DNA of 64,000 nt from Alcanivoracaceae bacterium. GTDB taxonomy: Bacteria; Pseudomonadota; Gammaproteobacteria; Xanthomonadales; Marinicellaceae. The stretch spans positions 62,001 to 126,000 of the forward strand of contig JADGEI010000007.1 of assembly GCA_016744455.1 (NCBI GenBank), in the 5' to 3' direction. Below the pieces are notes generated by a model. It saw only the letters and a program-made list of their open reading frames with translations. It ran no database searches and was not told where the DNA came from. Positions 2,657 through 16,883 of the stretch are shown in pieces (positions within the stretch are counted from its first letter, which is position 1; the number at the start of each line of letters is the position of its first letter). The position numbers were made by a program, and so were the translations under genes.

Positions 2657-3946
2657 TTAACTATCATTGAGTCGTTTTTGTAGAATTTCTATTCCCAAGT
2701 TAGCTGTTGCTCCAAGTGATATACGTGCAGCAATGGATTGTTCGGCTGTAATTTCAGAACTTTCATTTTTTGCCTGTCCATAGGCATCACGGAAACTAGC
2801 TCCATGTTTAACGTGTTTAAGTGCTTGGTCTGTTGCCATCATTTCAGGGTTTATTGCATCTCGCATAGCTTGTGTATTAAAATTTAATGCCATTATTAAC
2901 CCTGGCATTAATTTTAAAACGTGTTTCGTTAGTACAACACTTTTGATAAGGGGTTCTTTTGTGTTTTGTAAATCTCTTTGATAGCCAGATGGCAATGAAA
3001 TTAAACCTTGTATTTGTGCCATACACCCCTCAATTGTTGCCAGGCTTGCACGCATGAGTTCAACAACATCTGGGTTGGATTTATTTGGCATAATTGATGA
3101 GCCAGTGGTATGTGACTTGTTTAAAGTGATAAAGTTAAATTCAGAGGTTATAAACAAACTTAGGTCCCAAGAAAAACGTCGAATATTAAGCATGACTTGA
3201 TATAAAGCCTGTAAAACGACTAAGTCATATTTCCCTCGTGAATTTTGTGCATAAACTGGGTTGATTTGTACACGGTCAAAGCCCATTGCTTTAGCAGTTT
3301 GTTCTCTAGGTAAATCTAATGGTACGCCAAAACCAGCTGCAGTACCTAATGGAGAGCAATTAATATAATCTAAGGTGGAATTTAATAAATAGCTATCATC
3401 AATCATAGCTTCGGCAAAACCTAATAGCCATGCTGCAACTGTATGTGGCATAGCCCGTTGTAAATGTGTATAACCAGGCATAATAGCCTCCTTGTGTTGC
3501 TTGGCTAAATCAATAGTGCATTGTGCACATGCTTTGACGAGTTCATTTATGGTGTTTAAATTATGCTTGCTGAACAAACGTGTGCTTGTTAAAACTTGAT
3601 CATTTCGGCTGCGCCCTGTGTGTGCCTTTTTTCCCAATTCACCCAGTTTCTCAGTGAGATAAAACTCTATTGCTGAATGCCCATCTTCGTAAAAATTGTC
3701 TAGGATAAACTCGTTATTTTGATAACTCAGATTAAGCTGTGACAGGCACATGTGGAGTTTTGTATATTCTTCACCAGATAATACCCCACAAGTTTTTAAA
3801 CCTCCAATATGTGCCTGGCTTCCAATAATATCAAATTTAAATAAGTGTTTATCCAGTTTAATGTCTTCTCCTGCCATGAAGTCCATTAGTTCTTCGTCAA
3901 TGCTCTGGTTGTCGTCTCCACTCCATAAATAATTTTTGTTTTTCAT
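2657..3946 (-). CDS. argH: Argininosuccinate lyase
   Basis: Fumarase/ASL signature GSSIMPNKSNP; HTGRSRNDQVLTSTRL; PGYTHLQRAMP. Confidence 0.95.
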   Translation of the reverse strand: MKNKNYLWSGDDNQSIDEELMDFMAGEDIKLDKHLFKFDIIGSQAHIGGLKTCGVLSGEEYTKLHMCLSQLNLSYQNNEFILDNFYEDGHSAIEFYLTEKLGELGKKAHTGRSRNDQVLTSTRLFSKHNLNTINELVKACAQCTIDLAKQHKEAIMPGYTHLQRAMPHTVAAWLLGFAEAMIDDSYLLNSTLDYINCSPLGTAAGFGVPLDLPREQTAKAMGFDRVQINPVYAQNSRGKYDLVVLQALYQVMLNIRRFSWDLSLFITSEFNFITLNKSHTTGSSIMPNKSNPDVVELMRASLATIEGCMAQIQGLISLPSGYQRDLQNTKEPLIKSVVLTKHVLKLMPGLIMALNFNTQAMRDAINPEMMATDQALKHVKHGASFRDAYGQAKNESSEITAEQSIAARISLGATANLGIEILQKRLNDS

Positions 3947-4236
3947 TTGTATTTTATTCCTGTATTCATTTTTAAATTATATTTCGCTTTCAAAGCCAAA
4001 TTCATGTTTTGGATAGCTTGATTTGCAGCACCTTTTAACAGGTTATCAATACTAACACAAAAGACCAAATGATCGTCTTGCAAATGAAAACCATCTATTA
4101 ATATGGCCATTTTGACTATGGTTTGGTAGAGTTCTTGATGTGTTGGAATTATAGGATTGGGTAAGATTAAAAATAGAATAGTTAAATCTTCACCATATAG
4201 TTCATGATAATATGCAGGTGCTAATTTAGCTAATGG
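3943..4236 (-). pseudogene. argC: 3' remnant of argC (N-acetyl-gamma-glutamyl-phosphate reductase)
   Basis: Manual reverse translation: PLAKLAPAYYHELYGEDLTILFLILPNPIIPTHQELYQTIVKMAILIDGFHLQDDHLVFCVSIDNLLKGAANQAIQNMNLALKAKYNLKMNTGIKYK*. It ends in an ATGA overlap with argH. An in-frame TAG precedes it and no N-terminal ArgC domain is seen. Confidence 0.7.
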
Positions 4237-4502
4237 CTAATAATTAAAAATATCCATCCATGCTTGCATCTTTTTTAAAACACTATACTCCAAGTTTCTT
4301 TTGTGTTTCCAGTACAACAGCATGGTATAAGATTTATTACGACGTAAGCGCCTTACTACAGTAGGCGCATAAGGTGTTGATTGTTGTATTGATTTAATTG
4401 TGATTGATAATTTATATCCGTAGTGCATTTCGATAGTACTAAATACTAAAAAATTGCTATTGTCGAAACGAAATAGGTTTCGGGCAATATATTTCTATTA
4501 AA

Positions 4503-4516
4503 TTGACTTATATCAA
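4503..4516. promoter_or_regulatory. FNR/ANR-like box TTGACTTATATCAA upstream of porin
   Basis: One mismatch to TTGATnnnnATCAA; a TAAAAT (4538-4543) places it near -41. Confidence 0.5.
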
Positions 4517-4580
4517 GGTCGGTTTTAAGACAATTACTAAAATGCAATTATTAACTAAATTTCAGATTTTGGAGTAAAAA

Positions 4581-5777
4581 ATGAAAAACATTCTAAAGAC
4601 CTTAGTTGTCTACGGTCTATTACAAACTATTGGCGTATCAGCAGATGATAGTTTTTTAAATTCAATTAGCGAAGGCGAGACAAACTTAAATTTCAGATAC
4701 AGGTATGAATTTGTTGATCAAGATGGGTTTAATAAAAATGCAAGTGCATCTACTTTAAGAACTCGTTTAAATTATAAAACTAAAGCATACAAAGGTTTTA
4801 CCTTTTTTGTTGAAGCGGATAATGTTACAGAAATATTAGATGATAACTATAATGCAGGAGCTGGTAATTCTCCAGGTAATACAAGGTATCCTATCGTAGC
4901 TGATCCACAAGGAACTGAAATAAATCAAGCATGGTTTAATTTATCGTTGAACAAAGATAACAATGTAAAAATTGGCCGTCAAAGAATATTGCTAGATAAT
5001 CAACGATTTGTAGGTGGTGTGGGTTGGCGTCAAAATGAACAAACATATGATGCTATTTCTGGAGCTTTTGGTTTGTCAGGCTCAGAATTGTTTGTATCTT
5101 ATATTGGTAAAGTTCATAGAATTTTTGGCGATGATGTGGCAGCTGGTAATCATGATAATTCAACGGTATTAGTAAATTGGTCAAATAAGTTTGAAGATTT
5201 TGGAAAATTATCGGTTTACTATTATGATATAAATAATAAGGATGTTGCCGCTTTTTCAACCTCAACTTTAGGCGCAAAATTTGCTGGCCAAAAAAATAAA
5301 TTCACTTATGGTATGGAGATTGCTATACAAGATGATGCACATAATAACGAAGTTAGTTATTCTGCCAATTATTACCGTTTAGATGGTGGTTATAAATTAG
5401 AAAAATCGACAGTTTATGCAGGTTACGAATCTTTAGAAGGTAATGCGGATATTGCGGGCTCTATGTTTAGAACACCTTTAGCAACATTACATGCGTATAA
5501 TGGGTGGGCAGATAAGTTTTTAGGTACTCCTCAAGATGGTATTGATGATATCTTTATTGGTGCTAAAGGCGTGATCAATGGTTTTAAATGGAATGCATTA
5601 TTTCATGATTTTTCAGCACAAGATAGTGGTCGAGATTTAGGCACAGAGTTTGATTTTTCAATTGCTCGTAAGCTTAATAAACATGTTTCTTTATTATTAA
5701 AAGGTGCAATCTATAAAGCAGATGAACACGCTACGGATACAACAAAAGTATGGTTCATGGTTACTGGTAATTTTTAA
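4581..5777 (+). CDS. Outer-membrane beta-barrel porin (alginate_export-like family)
   Basis: Signal peptide; LNFRYRYEFVDQDG, INQAWFNLSL..., KIGRQRILLDNQRFVGGVGWRQNEQTYDA; C-terminal aromatic (GNF). Confidence 0.75.
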   Translation: MKNILKTLVVYGLLQTIGVSADDSFLNSISEGETNLNFRYRYEFVDQDGFNKNASASTLRTRLNYKTKAYKGFTFFVEADNVTEILDDNYNAGAGNSPGNTRYPIVADPQGTEINQAWFNLSLNKDNNVKIGRQRILLDNQRFVGGVGWRQNEQTYDAISGAFGLSGSELFVSYIGKVHRIFGDDVAAGNHDNSTVLVNWSNKFEDFGKLSVYYYDINNKDVAAFSTSTLGAKFAGQKNKFTYGMEIAIQDDAHNNEVSYSANYYRLDGGYKLEKSTVYAGYESLEGNADIAGSMFRTPLATLHAYNGWADKFLGTPQDGIDDIFIGAKGVINGFKWNALFHDFSAQDSGRDLGTEFDFSIARKLNKHVSLLLKGAIYKADEHATDTTKVWFMVTGNF

Positions 5778-5931: not shown

Positions 5932-7267
<1,336 letters not shown>

Positions 7268-7280
7268 CTTGATTTGAAAG

Positions 7281-8411
7281 ATGCCTATTTATTCAGTCAT
7301 ACAACTTAGCCAAGAATTAATCCGCAAAAAATCAATTACACCAGATGATAAAGGGTGTCAAAAATTAATTTCCAATCTATTAGTTAAGGCTGGTTTCACA
7401 ATTGAGACGCATCGCTTTGGTGATGTAGACAATCTTTTTGCATGGCACGGAGATAAAGCTGGTAAGAGTTTAATGTTTCTTGGGCATACTGACGTTGTTC
7501 CTGTGGGTGATGAATCAAATTGGCAGCTACCTCCATTTTCTGGACATGTTGATGAGTCTTATCTACATGGTCGTGGATCAGCTGATATGAAAGCCGGCGT
7601 TGCAGCATTTACCTTGTCTGTCATCAAGTATGTAAGAGAAAACCCAAATCACAATGGCAAAATATCGTTAATGCTGACAAGTGATGAAGAGGGTGTAGCT
7701 GAAAATGGCGTAAAGAAAATGATGCCTCATATTGCTATTAACCATGAAATTGACTACTGTGTTGTTGGAGAGCCATCGAGTTCTGAGCAATTGGGTGATG
7801 TAGTACGTATTGGTAGGCGTGGATCGTTGCATGTGGCCATTACTGTTCATGGAAAACAGGGGCATGTGGCTTACCCACAAAATGCATCTAACCCTGTTTT
7901 TTTAGCCGCAGGTTTGATAAAAGACTTGGCATGTTATAAATGGGATAATGGAAATGAAGATTTTCCGCCCACAAGTTTTCAAATATCTTCGGTTAAAACA
8001 TCAAGCAATACATCCAATATTATTCCAGCTGATTTATCTATTCAAGCTAATTTCAGGTATTCTACGGAGTCTACAGAAGAGAGTTTGAATAAGCAGTTAA
8101 CACAACTTCTTAAGCAACATAATCTAGATTACTCTCTCAATTGGAATTTGTCTGGTTTACCATTTTATAGCCAAAATCATCAATTTAGGTCTGTTGTAGA
8201 GTCGAGTATTCGTGAGTATTGTCACATAAATCCAATTTTTAATACGGCTGGCGGTACATCAGATGGTCGTTTTGTTGCACCTTTTGGGGTTGATGTGATA
8301 GAGTTGGGTGTTATCAATAAAACTATTCACCAAATAGATGAAAAGGTTTTAATCGATGACGTGAAAAAGTTGGAAAAAGTTTATTTTAGACTTATTACGT
8401 CATTACTATAA
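7281..8411 (+). CDS. dapE: Succinyl-diaminopimelate desuccinylase
   Basis: GHTDVVPVGD, GRGSADMKAGVAAF, TSDEEG, GGTSDGRF, IDEKV. Confidence 0.93.
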   Translation: MPIYSVIQLSQELIRKKSITPDDKGCQKLISNLLVKAGFTIETHRFGDVDNLFAWHGDKAGKSLMFLGHTDVVPVGDESNWQLPPFSGHVDESYLHGRGSADMKAGVAAFTLSVIKYVRENPNHNGKISLMLTSDEEGVAENGVKKMMPHIAINHEIDYCVVGEPSSSEQLGDVVRIGRRGSLHVAITVHGKQGHVAYPQNASNPVFLAAGLIKDLACYKWDNGNEDFPPTSFQISSVKTSSNTSNIIPADLSIQANFRYSTESTEESLNKQLTQLLKQHNLDYSLNWNLSGLPFYSQNHQFRSVVESSIREYCHINPIFNTAGGTSDGRFVAPFGVDVIELGVINKTIHQIDEKVLIDDVKKLEKVYFRLITSLL

Positions 8412-8433
8412 TATTTATGAAAGAGAGGCCATA

Positions 8434-10275
8434 ATGAAAAAAATAATATTAATTGCTGTCAGTATTTTAAGCACGCAAGTTTCAGCACTAAGTCCATGGT
8501 TGGAAACGTTAGATAAAGAGAATAAACAGCAACAATTAGACTTAAGGTGGTCGGCTTTTGGAGGTCAAGCTGATGTCAAGTTTATGTACAACAAGTTAAA
8601 TGATATGCATGTAACTGTTTCTCCATTGCCGCAATACCCAAATATGCATTGGGATTTAAATCATTTGGTCTATCCAATAAGTGAAAACTCAAAACTGGAA
8701 CTTCAAATGCCCTATGGTAACATTGAAGAAGTGACAGGCGGCTCTTTAGCAATCGATTCTGATTTTACTTTCACAAATGGCAAGTACTCAATAAAGGTTA
8801 ATTCATTTAAGTTAATTCCAGCAGAAAAACCAAAAGAAAGCAGTGACATAGTCAACTTCAAGCTGATTGACCAAAACAACAATCATTTATTTACTGTTAA
8901 TAGTATTCATATTGAATACGATAGAGAACAAGGTTTGTTGCTTATGTCAAATATGGATTTATTTGCGACAAAAGAATTTGCAACTCTTCTGGGAAACTCA
9001 TTTTTAGAAGGGCAAGTTGTAGGACAATTACATACGTATAATAAATTATCTATACCAGAAAATGCAGAGGTGGAATTGAGAGGTGGTAGTTGCGCTAATC
9101 ATCCTGTTTGGCCTCCGGCTGGTAACGTTGATGTGGCATTAACTGCAATAGGCAGCGTACAATACCGCAGTGCACATAATTCGAATGGTTTAGATTCTGA
9201 CTATATTGTGATTGCACCATCGGCAAGTTTAAAAAATGTTGGAACAGCAGATGTTCCTTGGTATACAAAGTACTCGGGTATTTTTGATCCTTATAATAAT
9301 GATCAGCATCCTTTACTAAATTGGGCAATATACCGTGAGGTTGATGGTAGGTTTGAGCAAATGGCTGTCTCAGGTGTTAAGCATGCCTTTTTAACAATTA
9401 ATTTTAATTGTACTATTGATTGTGGGAATAGCCATATACTTTGGTTAGGTTGCGAAGATGTCTATGGTGTTGGAAATAATGATTCAAGTTCGGCAATTGG
9501 ACCAAGAGAAGAAATTGAGGCATATAGTGGTACTTGGGACAATTGTGGTACATTTTTTGACCCTATGCCGTGTCAAGGTAGTCAACAAAACTTCTCCAGT
9601 GGACCAGGCCAGTTTAGAGCCGTTGTAAATACAAATGATTTGGTTGATGCCAATAATTCAGGTGTATATATGCAAGCTTGGTACCTGATTCGCGATGATG
9701 TCAATATATTTAATTCTATGGGCTATCGTGAAATCACACCAACAGCTGGAGGTGGAGGGTGGAGCTTTAATCCAGGGCCATTTGCAAATGGTGCTGCATT
9801 AGATAACTATGTACCCAAAAATACCATATCAGCCATGCAGTCTTCTCAGACAATAGAGTCTAGAGAAGGTCAATTTGCTGTAGCTGTTAAAGTAATTGAT
9901 CTTGGTAATGGGCTTTTCCGATACAATTACGCTGTTGAGAATTATGAAGTGGACCCACAGTTTAGTCAATTCAGGATACCTATGCTTGATTCACCACTGG
10001 TAACAGACTTTGTATTTTCTGATCCTGATGACAATGTTACAAATGATTGGAGTTTTAACCTTATTAATAATGAACTACAGGTCACAGGTAGTGCGACCAA
10101 CGAACAAGACTGGGGGATGTTGTTTAGCTTTTCTTTTACCGCACCGTCACCACCAGTTGAAGGTGTTATGACTATTGATATCGCTAATCCAAACGCTACC
10201 AATACCGTCTCAAGTGTTGTACTTGTTCCAGATTTGAATGATTTTGATAGCTTGTTTAATAATAGTTTTGAGTAA
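8434..10275 (+). CDS. Secreted protein of unknown function with C-terminal SLFNNSFE tail
   Basis: Signal peptide (MKKIILIAVSILSTQVSA); C-terminus DFDSLFNNSFE. Confidence 0.7.
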   Translation: MKKIILIAVSILSTQVSALSPWLETLDKENKQQQLDLRWSAFGGQADVKFMYNKLNDMHVTVSPLPQYPNMHWDLNHLVYPISENSKLELQMPYGNIEEVTGGSLAIDSDFTFTNGKYSIKVNSFKLIPAEKPKESSDIVNFKLIDQNNNHLFTVNSIHIEYDREQGLLLMSNMDLFATKEFATLLGNSFLEGQVVGQLHTYNKLSIPENAEVELRGGSCANHPVWPPAGNVDVALTAIGSVQYRSAHNSNGLDSDYIVIAPSASLKNVGTADVPWYTKYSGIFDPYNNDQHPLLNWAIYREVDGRFEQMAVSGVKHAFLTINFNCTIDCGNSHILWLGCEDVYGVGNNDSSSAIGPREEIEAYSGTWDNCGTFFDPMPCQGSQQNFSSGPGQFRAVVNTNDLVDANNSGVYMQAWYLIRDDVNIFNSMGYREITPTAGGGGWSFNPGPFANGAALDNYVPKNTISAMQSSQTIESREGQFAVAVKVIDLGNGLFRYNYAVENYEVDPQFSQFRIPMLDSPLVTDFVFSDPDDNVTNDWSFNLINNELQVTGSATNEQDWGMLFSFSFTAPSPPVEGVMTIDIANPNATNTVSSVVLVPDLNDFDSLFNNSFE

Positions 10276-10315: not shown

Positions 10316-11041
10316 TTATTTTTCAATCCACGCTTTCCTGAGCTTGTAAGTATCTAAATGTATTTGGTAATTTTTGAGGTTGAGTTTCCTCTGATTCATC
10401 TCAAAAATTACCCACTCTTGAAGTTTAATTGCTGCATTAAAATCAGCCACGGAAGCTAATACAGCGGCCTTTGTATCCCAAATGTAAAAAGGAATGCTTT
10501 TTTCATAAGGAAATGTTGACCAAAGTTCAGAAATTATTCTTAACGCTTTTTCAGGGTTTCTACAGTGTTTATCTTTTGAAGTTGCAAGGTTCCACGCATG
10601 GTTGTTAAAGGCAAGTTCGACCCCTTTTTTTTCGGCTTTTTCGTACCATTGATAAGCAGTTTGGCAATTTTTTTCAAACCCAGCTTTACCATGGTAATGG
10701 TAGGAGGCAATAAGCTCAAGCACACTAGCGACACCAAGATTGGCAGCCCTTTGCATCCAGATTAACGCTTCATCTTCTGTGGCTTCTACATTTAATTCAT
10801 AGGCTAAATCTTCCATGGCATGAGGATAGCCCATATCTGCAGCTTTCCTTAACCAAATCATAGCCTCATCGTAATCTGCATTAAAATCATCTGAGCCATC
10901 AAATAATGTAGATGCAATAAAATATGCTACTTCGGCGTTACCATTTTCAACTTGAGAAATTAACGCATCAGGGACAATAAAATCTTCCTTGGCATAACTG
11001 CACGCAGCACATAAAAGTAATATAAAGAGTTTAATATTCAT
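10316..11041 (-). CDS. Sel1/TPR repeat periplasmic protein
   Basis: Sel1 motifs (DYDEAMIWLRKAADMGYPHAMEDLA, EALIWMQRAANLGVASVLELIA, AYQWYEKAEKKGVELAFNN). Starts in a 4-bp overlap with the upstream ORF. Confidence 0.8.
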   Translation of the reverse strand: MNIKLFILLLCAACSYAKEDFIVPDALISQVENGNAEVAYFIASTLFDGSDDFNADYDEAMIWLRKAADMGYPHAMEDLAYELNVEATEDEALIWMQRAANLGVASVLELIASYHYHGKAGFEKNCQTAYQWYEKAEKKGVELAFNNHAWNLATSKDKHCRNPEKALRIISELWSTFPYEKSIPFYIWDTKAAVLASVADFNAAIKLQEWVIFEMNQRKLNLKNYQIHLDTYKLRKAWIEK

Positions 11042-13608
11042 AATTTTTTGAGTTGTTGTTCAAAATATTCCCCTCTTTTGATATAACTTTTAAACTCATC
11101 AAAGCTTGGGGCACCTGGTGACAATAATATTGTATGCTCTAAAGGCGTGTGCTTCTTTGCATATAGTATAGATTGAGCTAATTTTTCGTGATAAAAATAA
11201 TTTTTATTTGATTTAATTGATTGTAAATAATTGAAAATAATTTTTCCGCTGGGGCCACTAAATATCATCAGTTTTGCAGGGTTATCATGTAACGATTGGG
11301 CAAACTCACTCCAATCATTTCCTCTATCATAACCGCCAACTAGTAAGGTGGTTTCATTTAACTTTAATGTCTGCATTGCAGCTAATGTTGCTATCGGAGT
11401 AGTAGCTATGCTATCATTTATAGCATAATGACCATTAATTTTCCCTAAGTTTTGTAAGCGATGGACCAATGGTTTAAACGATTTAATGGCATTGACACAT
11501 GTTGCTAATGTGAGGTTTAATTGTACACAAACGGTTAAGACCGCAGCAATATTTTGTAAATTGTGCAAGCCTATGAGTGCTGTATCATCAAGCGTAAAAA
11601 TCGTATTGTTATTATAGACTAAGTCGTTTCCTTTGATGCAAAAACCGTTTGTATGATTAAAGTAAATAATGCCTTTTCCATTAGCTAATTTTGCTAAATT
11701 TGAATTTTCAGCATTAATAATTTTGGTTTTTGCAAAATCTAATATTTTTAGTTTATCCCTGAAATAATTTTTACTACCTTTGTGCCAATCTACGTGTTCA
11801 GGATAAAGGTTTGTGACCACGGCAATGTCAGCTTTTATATTTCCGTCATAAATCTGAAAACTTGAGGCTTCGAGAACAATATAGTCATAGTTTGAGTCTG
11901 ATGATATTAGTGCTTGACCAATATTCCCTACTAAGTTCACTGTAGCACCACAGGCTTTAAGTACATGTGCTAATAGACTTACCGTAGTGCTTTTCCCTTT
12001 GGTTCCTGTAATTGCAATGACCGTTGTGTTTTTTTCATTTGCAAACCAAAGAGCTGTTGGTGAAGTAAATTGACATGTGGCCTCCTGTACTAGTAGATTA
12101 TAAGGACTGATTCCAGGAGATTTTATCACTAAGTCAAAGGTGTTAAGTAATTCTGCGTTGACCTCTTTTGTATAACATTTGTATTTTTCATCTTTTTCTT
12201 CCTCAGCGCATAAAACTGTAAAGTTAATTTGATTTTTCTCTAAATATTTGGCGGTTGCTTTCCCCTCAACTCCATAACCCCAAATTGCAATTTTTACACT
12301 TGTGTTTTGTAATTGAAGTAGCTTTAATAGCTTGGTCTTGTTGGTTTCGTTTTGCTTAAATGTTTTTTTAAAGTGTACGATTAAAGCATCATTTTTCCAT
12401 TCGTGTTGATTTTTAATCATAGCGAAGGCCTGTAGACTTTCTTCTATTTCGCCAACACATTCAAAAGGTTTAATGCCATTAATGCCTAGTAACTCAGAAA
12501 AGCCTTGTGCTTGTGTTTTATCATCAAGCATGTTTTTATTGAAAATATTTAGTAACTGTTGTTTTTTTATGAATGGTGCAAGCCCCAAAAAAACGAAGCG
12601 GCATTTCGGGCAATTACAACACCATTTTGTTTGATTGTTTTTAGAACCTTCGATATGGAAATTACGATTACAACTAGAAAAAACAGGGAAATATTTAGGA
12701 TACTTGGCAAATTTTTCAAGAATTTCTAATTCTGAAAATTGACGTTGCTGAGAGTAATAACGAACATTGTGGGTAATTTCATTTGCTATAATGGTAGAAA
12801 AATCTTCTTCGAATTCATAGCTTTTGGAATATTGGTGATTAACTTTGTCTCCATGTTTATTGATGGTGTTTTCACTGTCTGCAGATTTTTCATTGGAGAA
12901 AACAACCTCATCAAAATTATATAGTAAGGCACTTAAAACCGATATGGCTGAGTTTATAGCTGTTATAGGTACATGGCCATTAAAAGCTCCTTGAGAGTTA
13001 TATTTGATTAATTTAGGGTCAATTTTACGTTGAACTTGAATTAAGGGTAAATTTATAAATTTTGCTACATCTTTTATTAGCGTCGAATTTCCAACCATAA
13101 ACAAATTTAAATCATTTCCACGTTGTTTAAGTTCTTCAACAGTGACTAACGAGTCTTTTCCTCCACCTAAAGCGACTAGGAATTTAGGTGCAGATTGAAC
13201 CTTGGGTTGAGGTTTTATTTTTTGTTGTATTTGTGTTGTTGCAGTAAGAAAATCATTAATACCAATTAACTCCACGTGGTTTACATAAGCCAGTTCTGCT
13301 AAACCATGTTTCCAAGTCTTTGCAATGAAATGTCTCATGGTCTTAGAGGGCAAGACGTTTTCAAATATAATGTTTCTGGCCAAACCAGATTTATAATAGC
13401 TTACACCGGACATTAAATGGACTAATCTACATGCAGAATCAATTTCGTTACGCGTTGATATATCATTCTTTATGGTAAAAGAAGGAAATGACAAAGTTTC
13501 TGTGACTGTGCCAATTTGTTCTACTTCATAGTTCAAAAATAGTTGGTGTTTTGATCTGTCTAATTTCCAATCAAGAAATCTAAAGTTTTGATGAAATTTC
13601 TTTGTCAT
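11038..13608 (-). CDS. Fusion protein: MurL-like UDP-MurNAc-L-Ala-L-Glu epimerase (N-terminal) + MurD/MurD2-like ligase (C-terminal)
   Basis: N-half: LVALGGGKDSLVTVEELK, VFSNEKSADSEN, KWCCNCPKCRFVFLGLAPF (MurL-type). C-half from about KIAIWGYGVEGKATAKYL: VIAITGTKGKSTT, NIGQAL, VLEASSFQ, TNLYPEHVDWHK, ATTPIATLAAM, GGYDRG (MurD-type). One uninterrupted frame. Confidence 0.85.
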   Translation of the reverse strand: MTKKFHQNFRFLDWKLDRSKHQLFLNYEVEQIGTVTETLSFPSFTIKNDISTRNEIDSACRLVHLMSGVSYYKSGLARNIIFENVLPSKTMRHFIAKTWKHGLAELAYVNHVELIGINDFLTATTQIQQKIKPQPKVQSAPKFLVALGGGKDSLVTVEELKQRGNDLNLFMVGNSTLIKDVAKFINLPLIQVQRKIDPKLIKYNSQGAFNGHVPITAINSAISVLSALLYNFDEVVFSNEKSADSENTINKHGDKVNHQYSKSYEFEEDFSTIIANEITHNVRYYSQQRQFSELEILEKFAKYPKYFPVFSSCNRNFHIEGSKNNQTKWCCNCPKCRFVFLGLAPFIKKQQLLNIFNKNMLDDKTQAQGFSELLGINGIKPFECVGEIEESLQAFAMIKNQHEWKNDALIVHFKKTFKQNETNKTKLLKLLQLQNTSVKIAIWGYGVEGKATAKYLEKNQINFTVLCAEEEKDEKYKCYTKEVNAELLNTFDLVIKSPGISPYNLLVQEATCQFTSPTALWFANEKNTTVIAITGTKGKSTTVSLLAHVLKACGATVNLVGNIGQALISSDSNYDYIVLEASSFQIYDGNIKADIAVVTNLYPEHVDWHKGSKNYFRDKLKILDFAKTKIINAENSNLAKLANGKGIIYFNHTNGFCIKGNDLVYNNNTIFTLDDTALIGLHNLQNIAAVLTVCVQLNLTLATCVNAIKSFKPLVHRLQNLGKINGHYAINDSIATTPIATLAAMQTLKLNETTLLVGGYDRGNDWSEFAQSLHDNPAKLMIFSGPSGKIIFNYLQSIKSNKNYFYHEKLAQSILYAKKHTPLEHTILLSPGAPSFDEFKSYIKRGEYFEQQLKKL

Positions 13609-13705: not shown

Positions 13706-14329
13706 TTAGCTCAAAAGTTTTTTAATAATCGATTCATTGATAACTGCTTGTTTTGCGGTTTCTAATCGGTGTGCACGAACAATAGTTTTTAAGCCTTTCA
13801 GGGCATCTTCGAAATCGTCATTGATGACTAAATAGTCGGCTTCACCGTAATGTGATATTTCATTCAAAGATTTTTCCATTCGGGCATCAATGACTTCTTT
13901 TGAGTCTTGACCACGATTTTCCAATCGATCACGTAAGTCCTGAATACTAGGTGGTAATATGAATATGCTAATGGCATCAGGGCGGCGTTTTTTTATCAGT
14001 TGCGCACCTTGCCAGTCGATTTCAAGAACGACATCGTGGCCCTCGTGAAGCATTTTGTCGACAGATTCTTGAGATGTTCCATAATAGTTCCCAAAGACTT
14101 CTGCGTACTCTAAAAAGTCGCCAGCAGTCATTTTTTGTTTGAATTTTTCAGTCTCAATAAAATGGTAGTGGTAACCATCAATTTCACGTGGACGAATGTT
14201 GCGTGTAGTTGATGATATGGATAATTTCAAATGGTTAGTATCACGAACAAGTGCATTGACTAAGCTTGTTTTGCCAGTGCCTGAAGGTGCTGAAACGATA
14301 AATAGTGTGCCAATTAATTTTCCTATCAT
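13706..14329 (-). CDS. gmk: Guanylate kinase
   Basis: FIVSAPSGTGKTSLVNAL, STTRNIRPREIDGYHYHF, LEIDWQGA. Confidence 0.95.
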   Translation of the reverse strand: MIGKLIGTLFIVSAPSGTGKTSLVNALVRDTNHLKLSISSTTRNIRPREIDGYHYHFIETEKFKQKMTAGDFLEYAEVFGNYYGTSQESVDKMLHEGHDVVLEIDWQGAQLIKKRRPDAISIFILPPSIQDLRDRLENRGQDSKEVIDARMEKSLNEISHYGEADYLVINDDFEDALKGLKTIVRAHRLETAKQAVINESIIKKLLS

Positions 14330-14334
14330 AATAG

Positions 14335-15207
14335 TTATTCTATGTTTTGAACTTGTTCACGCATTTGCTCAATGGCTACTTTTAGATTAATGCTGGATTG
14401 TGAAGTCAGTATGGTAGCAGATTTGGACCCAATGGTGTTAGCCTCTCGGTGTAATTCTTGTATCAGGAAATCCAGCCTACGCCCTACAGGCTCATCAAGT
14501 TCAATTACACGTTGAATCTCTGTAATATGAGTATTTAATCTATCGGTTTCTTCAATAATATCAGCTTTTTGTAGTAATATTGCAAGTTCCTGCTCAAAAC
14601 GGTCTTCGTTATGATCGACATCAATTTCTTTCAATTTGGTTAATAAACGGTCCTTTAAGCCTTTTTGAATGTCAGGAATATGTTTTTCTACTAAATTTTT
14701 AGTTTCAAGTATGGTGTCTAATTTTTCTAATAAGACGATTTTTAGAGATTCGCCTTCTCGAATGCGTGCTTTGAGTAATTTCTCTGTTACATTTTTTATT
14801 AAATCTAAAGTAGTTTGTTGTAATTCAGTGGTGTCTTTTGGTGTTTGAATGACCAATTGTGGCCAAGTTAAGATGTCCATGGTATTAAAGTCTGTATTGA
14901 CGTCAATAACTTTTTTGTTTATTTCTTCATTGCAATGCAATAGTTGTTGCAACATAGGAAGGTTAATACTTAAGTCATTGATATCTGCATCTGGGTTAGG
15001 GTAATATTTAATGAAGACTTCTACCTTTCCACGACTTAAATAAGTTGATAATAGTTTGCGAATTTTACCCTCAGACTTTCTTAAAAAATCAGGTTGCCTT
15101 ATGGTAGTGTCTAAGAAACGTTGGTTTACAGAGCGCATTTCGCAGGTAAATCTTCCGTATGGAGTTTGGATATCGCCATTGGCGAATGCGGTCATGGATT
15201 TAAGCAT
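14335..15207 (-). CDS. yicC: YicC-family endoribonuclease-like protein
   Basis: MLKSMTAFANG..., EMRSVNQRFLD, RLDFLIQELHREANTIGSKS. Confidence 0.92.
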   Translation of the reverse strand: MLKSMTAFANGDIQTPYGRFTCEMRSVNQRFLDTTIRQPDFLRKSEGKIRKLLSTYLSRGKVEVFIKYYPNPDADINDLSINLPMLQQLLHCNEEINKKVIDVNTDFNTMDILTWPQLVIQTPKDTTELQQTTLDLIKNVTEKLLKARIREGESLKIVLLEKLDTILETKNLVEKHIPDIQKGLKDRLLTKLKEIDVDHNEDRFEQELAILLQKADIIEETDRLNTHITEIQRVIELDEPVGRRLDFLIQELHREANTIGSKSATILTSQSSINLKVAIEQMREQVQNIE

Positions 15208-15299: not shown

Positions 15300-16025
15300 T
15301 TATTTTAAAAATTCTTCTAGTTCAGAACTTCCTCCAATTAATTTCCCATCAATGAAAATTTGAGGAACGCCGCCGCCGCCACTAAGTGCTCGTGTAGTAA
15401 TATGTGTGGCATCTTTACCTATGACGATTTCTTCATAAGTCATGCCTTTCGCATTTAGCATTTCTTTGGCTTTCATACAAAACGGGCAGGTATCCTTACT
15501 AATGACAACGACTGATGAAGGGGGTTTAGCATCAGTATTGATATAATCAAGCATGGTATCAGCATCAGACACGCCAAATGGATCACCAGGTGTTTCTTCT
15601 TCAATAAACATTTTTTCAATCACACCGTTTTTAACCAACATGGAGTAACGCCATGATCTTTTCCCAAATCCTATTGCATCTTTCTCTACTAATAAACCCA
15701 TGCCATCGGTAAAATCACCATTGCCATCAGGTAATAATTTAACATTTTTCACCTGTAGGTCTTTTGCCCATGCGTTCATGACAAACGTATCGTTAACACT
15801 AATACAGTAAACTTCATCTATGCCGTTATCCTTCATAACTGGAGTAAGTTGGTCATAACGCGGTAAATGTGAAGCTGAACACGTTGGTGTGAATGCGCCA
15901 GGTAAGGAAAATACCACGACTGTCTTATCTGCGAATAAGTCATTAGTTGACCATTTGGCCCAGTCAAAATTATGGCGTACAGGAAAGTCTACTTGAGGAA
16001 CGTTTTGTCCAGTTTTATCTTGCAT
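15300..16025 (-). CDS. Hybrid peroxiredoxin (Prx5)-glutaredoxin
   Basis: N-terminal PGAFTPTCSASHLP; C-terminal glutaredoxin SKDTCPFCMKAKEML, GGVPQIFIDGKLIGG. Start reset to ATG at 16025 (MQDKTGQN) because the listed start overlaps rph. Confidence 0.9.
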   Translation of the reverse strand: MQDKTGQNVPQVDFPVRHNFDWAKWSTNDLFADKTVVVFSLPGAFTPTCSASHLPRYDQLTPVMKDNGIDEVYCISVNDTFVMNAWAKDLQVKNVKLLPDGNGDFTDGMGLLVEKDAIGFGKRSWRYSMLVKNGVIEKMFIEEETPGDPFGVSDADTMLDYINTDAKPPSSVVVISKDTCPFCMKAKEMLNAKGMTYEEIVIGKDATHITTRALSGGGGVPQIFIDGKLIGGSSELEEFLK

Positions 16026-16163
16026 ATTTCTTCTCTTGTTTAAAATAATCGAACTATTATCTACTAACATTAGGCAAATGTATATTTGAATGTTTCTATT
16101 GTAATGTATTAAAAAATAGAACATTGGTTTAAAATACATGTTTCTAACTAATATAAAGATACG

Positions 16164-16883
16164 ATGCAAAGACCTAGTAAGCGTAATAACAATCAACTAA
16201 GAGATATTAAGATAACAAGGAACTACACCATACATGCTGAAGGTTCTGTACTCATTGAGTGTGGGAATACCAAAGTATTATGTAATGCATCAGTGGAGGA
16301 TCGCGTTCCTATGTGGTTACGTGGAAAAGGTAAAGGTTGGGTAACAGCTGAATATGGCATGTTGCCTCGCTCAACTAATTCTCGTATGCGTCGTGAAGCG
16401 GCTGCGGGAAAACAAGGGGGCAGAACCATGGAGATTCAACGATTGATTGCACGGTCATTGCGTGCTGTTGTGGATTTAAAAGCCTTAGGCGAAAGGATTA
16501 TAACAGTTGATTGTGATGTTATCCAAGCGGATGGTGGTACAAGAACGGCGTCTATTACTGGTGCGTATGTGGCGATGGCAGATGCTATTAATAAACTCTT
16601 AGAGGAAGGCACTCTTAAGAAAAACCCAATTCATGGAGAAATTGCAGCAATTTCTGTTGGGATATACGAAGGTGAGCCAGTATTGGATTTGGATTACCCT
16701 GAGGACTCAAATGCTGAAACAGATATGAATGTTGTAATGAATGGTTTAGGGCACTTTATCGAAGTTCAAGGAACAGCAGAAGGGCATGCCTTTAGCCGTA
16801 ATGAAATGAATAATATGTTGGACTTGGCTGAATTAGGAATCAATCAATTAATGGCAGAACAAAGACAGGCGCTTGATGGATAA
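16164..16883 (+). CDS. rph: Ribonuclease PH
   Basis: [55 protein letters not shown]. Confidence 0.95.

Follow-up and report, generated by a model that had tools for sequence, protein, structure and literature searches.

How does the organism that carries this locus supply the D-glutamate of its cell wall? The question is raised by a stretch of 64,000 nucleotides from an Alcanivoracaceae bacterium (contig JADGEI010000007.1, positions 62,001-126,000, forward strand, assembly GCA_016744455.1; hereafter the window), in which one gene encodes an 856-residue protein, to which all residue numbers refer, with an epimerase of the MurL type in its N-terminal half and a ligase of the MurD type in its C-terminal half. 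The protein is very probably a bifunctional peptidoglycan-precursor enzyme that takes the place of the usual glutamate racemase (MurI) and of the MurD encoded in the dcw cluster, its single chain having arisen in one genus when the stop and start of an overlapping murL-murD pair were lost. By homology with characterised enzymes, the MurD2-type half would add L-glutamate (L-Glu) to the cell-wall precursor, and the MurL half would then flip the added residue to D-glutamate (D-Glu).

The fused reading frame and its origin

The frame opens with ATG, closes with TGA and is uninterrupted by stop codons. Its halves match the families NF041275 (MurL) and TIGR01087 (MurD) (Table 1), and MurL-type and MurD-type halves had been proposed in a preliminary description of the sequence; the join, placed there near residue 445, lies slightly earlier, near residues 436-438 by the NCBIfam domain edges. 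The 445 bits of the MurL half are below the equivalog cut-off of NF041275 (700, Xanthomonadales-specific), as in all members of the source organism's taxonomic family. Pfam matches were limited to the ligase half, which retains the catalytic residues K539, N562, E580, H605, K619, R717 and D732.

The genus of the source organism comprised 11 genomes, with the locus readable in nine. Six were fused (G000, G003, G004, G006, G009 and G010, with G003 cut by a contig end), so that the search among relatives suggested in the preliminary description yielded five further, separately assembled genomes; loci L043, L044, L045 and L047 duplicate the contigs of G004, G009, G003 and G006, respectively, and hence do not raise the number of fused genomes from six to ten. 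The other three (G002, G005 and G007) had separate murL and murD genes overlapping by 1-4 bases (CATGA, TAATGA or TATGA). Both the stop and the ATG of this overlap were lost in all six fused genomes, where a single frame runs throughout and the linker varies by lineage. An assembly or sequencing error that merged two neighbouring open reading frames (ORFs), a possibility already raised in the preliminary description, would take only one indel, most relatives having separate murL and murD genes with a few bases of overlap; it has virtually no chance of being correct, because the fused frame recurs in six separately assembled genomes that form one clade, with differing linkers. The fusion is not an assembly error.

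In a maximum-likelihood tree of both halves, the fused clade was nested within the genus (support 77% for six members, 100% for five), and the unfused overlapping genes branched before it. Since these unfused members carry overlapping murL and murD, the simplest reading of the sequences is a single origin of the fusion from a translationally coupled gene pair; two origins are possible at 77% support. The ratio of nonsynonymous to synonymous substitution rates (dN/dS) between the closest pairs was 0.21-0.33 for the MurL half and 0.11-0.16 for the MurD half, well below 1, which indicates that both are under purifying selection.

The chain might still be processed, or the ligase half also made by internal initiation, leaving two working proteins as in Xanthomonas. 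In-frame TTG or GTG codons near the junction of some fused relatives, and a variable linker that is among the less confidently predicted stretches, speak for this very unlikely reading; against it, the ancestral ATG is gone from every fused genome, and the window offers no in-frame ATG, GTG or TTG between codons 397 and 494, which leaves the ligase half without an obvious separate start site. The preliminary description had also remarked that the later-acting epimerase comes first. That order stands: murL also precedes murD in unfused members of the genus, sister genera, Devosia/Pelagibacterium and Lachnospiraceae, so the domain order follows the gene order and requires no functional reason.

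Glutamate specificity and the absence of MurI and a second MurD

The MurD2/MurL pathway is already known (Feng et al. 2017, as cited in PMC8788868). Its Xanthomonas oryzae representatives, MurD2 (XOO_1320) and MurL (XOO_1319), resemble the fusion in both domains, in four glutamate-site residues, in the adjacency of their genes and in the lack of MurI (PMC8788868), and the link drawn to this route in the preliminary description held for both halves. X. oryzae MurD2 has E197, R358, P433 and F435 where Escherichia coli MurD has D182, K348, A414 and L416; the double substitution E197D/R358K turns X. oryzae MurD2 to D-Glu, and K319T allows L-Glu use by E. coli MurD (PMC8788868, whose residue numbering leaves out Met1; the present alignment was adjusted for this).

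All six fused ligases carried E/R/P/F at E. coli positions 182/348/414/416 (E604, R762, P834 and F836 in the window) and Ile at position 319 (I734). E/R/P/F or E/R/P/Y was found in 28 of 31 unfused gammaproteobacterial MurL partners, and E/R/P/Y in 52/52 alphaproteobacterial ones. In contrast, the canonical MurD controls (30 loci of the class-wide sample, E. coli and genome G011) displayed D/K at 182/348 and K319 in 32/32 and the E/R/P/F pattern in none. Position 319 split the two groups as well as any position examined (Ile in 105/107 MurL-associated ligases), and, in line with the reported effect of K319T, Ile there may be used as a simple marker of L-Glu-type ligases at the sequence level. 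Position 416 was not diagnostic, Phe also occurring in 24/32 controls.

The ligase half shares with E. coli MurD the Mur ligase fold (template modelling score up to 0.87 by target length) and the catalytic Lys/Asn/Glu/His/Lys/Arg, and differs from it in the L-Glu-type residues at the glutamate site and at the K319 position, in lying outside dcw and in being joined to MurL. It also scores above the general MurD cut-off of TIGR01087, as it would if MurL had been joined to a canonical D-Glu-specific MurD and were vestigial or otherwise used. This is highly improbable given the MurD2 pattern, a genome with no MurI over cut-off to provide D-Glu, and a MurL half under purifying selection with every invariant residue retained; Asp182/Lys348, Lys319 and the dcw location of canonical MurD are all lacking. 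Because the fused ligase has the MurD2 residues, including both mutational determinants of L-Glu use, and Ile in place of K319, the choice between the two glutamates appears largely settled in favour of L-Glu, and the D-Glu-only ligase that the preliminary description had allowed for is contradicted by the sequence.

Absences in the source genome (3.62 Mb in 47 contigs, 99.96% complete) were judged by searches with family profiles. The search for murI and canonical murD suggested in the preliminary description found neither over cut-off: the best glutamate-racemase match reached about 26-27 bits against a cut-off of 147, and no second MurD accompanied the fusion. The single PF01177 match was rejected as MurI, being an Asp/amino-acid racemase (TIGR00035, 247 bits, vs about 26-27 bits for glutamate racemase). 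The dcw cluster, whose order we take to be ftsI-murE-murF-mraY-ftsW-murG-murC-ddl-ftsQ-ftsA-ftsZ-lpxC, has no murD between mraY and ftsW, the usual murD site; the ATG of ftsW (8370) directly follows the mraY stop (8369), so murD is cleanly missing. The proposed replacement of MurI and MurD is thus borne out at the level of gene content.

Among 61 relatives, MurL was found in 58 and never together with MurI, which exceeded its cut-off in one genome (G011) without MurL; the other two lacking MurL are fragmentary assemblies with murD cut by a contig end. G011 (L166), filed in the same taxonomic family, has murI and a dcw murD with canonical residues, and its murB follows murC in dcw, an Alphaproteobacteria-like gene order for which it was left out as a close relative; the genome is possibly misplaced or mislabelled.

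Several points weigh against the bifunctional replacement. The D-amino-acid transaminase model gave four sub-threshold matches in the source genome: two on one IlvE ORF, one on PabC and one on an unclassified class-IV aminotransferase (contig C40), which scored 157 bits (cut-off 277), though a better 239 bits on the branched-chain model (cut-off 363), so that the cell might conceivably have some supply of D-Glu. An assembly in 47 contigs carries a small risk for claims of absence, and the catalytic activities of the fusion are attributed from homologues. The inter-domain arrangement is also uncertain (predicted template modelling score, pTM, 0.70 vs 0.91 for MurL modelled separately) and lends no support to channelling. 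With both domains confidently modelled, this lower value indicates that the halves are probably flexibly joined; coupling of the two steps, channelling or a kinetic advantage is at most a possible consequence of the fusion.

Predicted fold of the MurL half

Reviews describe MurL as a protein that "lacks known conserved domains" and leave its use of adenosine triphosphate (ATP) unexplained. In sequence and profile searches, the MurL half was covered by no Pfam family and by no solved structure over its full length. Its AlphaFold model was confident (mean predicted local distance difference test, pLDDT, 89.7), and the best solved Foldseek matches were QueC, QatC-QatB, Cap9 and TtuA (E 8e-5 to 7e-4), the PP-loop of TtuA also being matched by a MurL profile (E 8e-4). 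The GGGKDS motif and C313, C330, C333 and C336 were invariant across 33 MurL sequences from several phyla. The model thus suggests for window positions 12289-13608 (-) a QueC-like PP-loop fold, at fold level only, in which a PP-loop Rossmann domain is combined with a QueC-type cysteine cluster and a putative metal site.

The PP-loop ATPases QueC, QatC and Cap9 share with the MurL half the predicted fold (E 8e-5 to 5e-4), the GGGKDS PP-loop and clustered cysteines, but only about 11-14% identity; the MurL half has an additional N-terminal beta domain (residues 8-82) and C-terminal helices, and differs in substrate and in outcome, namely epimerisation. In QueC a carboxylate is adenylated and a cysteine cluster holds zinc; this adenosine monophosphate (AMP)-forming chemistry would be a trait shared with MurL. 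The predicted fold agrees with the adenylate mechanism put forward, without a structural basis, by the discoverers of MurL, a mechanism that may apply to the MurL half here. AMP-forming chemistry has been reported for X. oryzae MurL (PMC8788868).

Distribution, gene neighbourhood and significance

Among 80 named loci, 369 genomes of the class (10 with MurL) and 399 of the phylum (20 with MurL), no fusion turned up beyond the genus; the class and phylum samples are thin enough that independent fusions elsewhere are possible. In G043, G054 and L076, long open reading frames were rejected as fusions, each being an overhang beside a separate MurD frame. Xanthomonas and every relative sampled outside the genus have two separate proteins, in contrast to the one chain of the source genus. 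Two genomes of one genus (L155, from G042, and G051) had murL and murD unlinked on different contigs, and a MurL match with one in-frame TGA.

Lachnospiraceae from rumen and gut (Butyrivibrio, Pseudobutyrivibrio and others; L103, L106, L108, L110, L111, L114-L122) also have murL, and the murD that usually comes after it has R348 and I319 but in many cases D182. In four such genomes no MurI exceeded its cut-off and no other MurD was present, so the MurL route probably extends to the Bacillota, beyond the taxa named in PMC8788868.

Known fusions likewise join two peptidoglycan-precursor enzymes per chain, such as MurE/MurF (Bordetella), MurB/MurC (Verrucomicrobium; also PMC4803751), MurC/Ddl (Chlamydia), MurG/MurC and MraY/MurG (PMC6420597); none of those listed contains MurD or MurL, and here ligase and epimerase work on the same glutamate. 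A literature search, largely without subscription papers, found no published MurL-MurD fusion; both enzymes are known, and their single-chain form in one genus appears not to have been described before.

Table 1. Features of the fusion gene and its downstream neighbour (window coordinates)
Feature	Position	Strand	Basis
murL-murD2 fusion gene, 856 aa	11038..13608	-	ORF list and domain matches
MurL domain, residues 3-435	12304..13602	-	NF041275, 445 bits, E 2e-133; AlphaFold model, predicted QueC/PP-loop fold
MurD2-type ligase domain, residues 439-854	11047..12294	-	TIGR01087, 299 bits (cut-off 212)
GGGKDS PP-loop motif, residues 148-153	13150..13167	-	Invariant in MurL sequences
C313...C330-x2-C333-x2-C336, putative QueC-like metal site	12601..12672	-	Four invariant Cys
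Linker, residues about 421-438	12295..12348	-	Neither stop nor ATG of ancestral overlap present
E604 (MurD2 Glu197, E. coli Asp182), L-Glu determinant	11797..11799	-	Alignment
R762 (MurD2 Arg358, E. coli Lys348), L-Glu determinant	11323..11325	-	Alignment
I734 (E. coli Lys319 position)	11407..11409	-	Alignment
P834-S835-F836 (MurD2 Pro433/Phe435)	11101..11109	-	Alignment
Sel1-repeat protein gene	10316..11041	-	ATG overlaps fusion stop (ATGA, 11038-11041)

The Sel1-repeat protein is probably a co-translated neighbour of the fusion; a Sel1-repeat gene also follows murD in unfused members of the genus (L126, L128). Upstream lie what we take, by sequence recognition, to be gmk (13706-14329) and a yicC-like gene (14335-15207). 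The frame at 15300-16196 (-) reads like a peroxiredoxin-glutaredoxin hybrid, a type of fusion already known. Similar C-terminal tails (...FSDGFEN, ...YKDGFE, ...FNNSFE) end secreted-looking proteins of contig C40 (L017; ORFs 3409-5211 and 6898-9483) and of the window (ORF 8434-10275), and are perhaps a sorting tail typical of the source organism's taxonomic family.

As an essential two-step replacement of MurI and MurD in one gene, the fusion would be a simple tool for asking whether MurE has to be shielded from the precursor of the wrong handedness, and would offer inhibitors of the MurL pathway a single target. On a bolder and rather unlikely reading, the protein would be a self-contained, compact D-Glu module that could rescue cells lacking both MurI and MurD. 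The predicted QueC-like fold may give a structural basis to MurL's use of ATP, and the genus, with overlapping-gene and fused forms together, offers a clear case of a coupled gene pair becoming a fusion.
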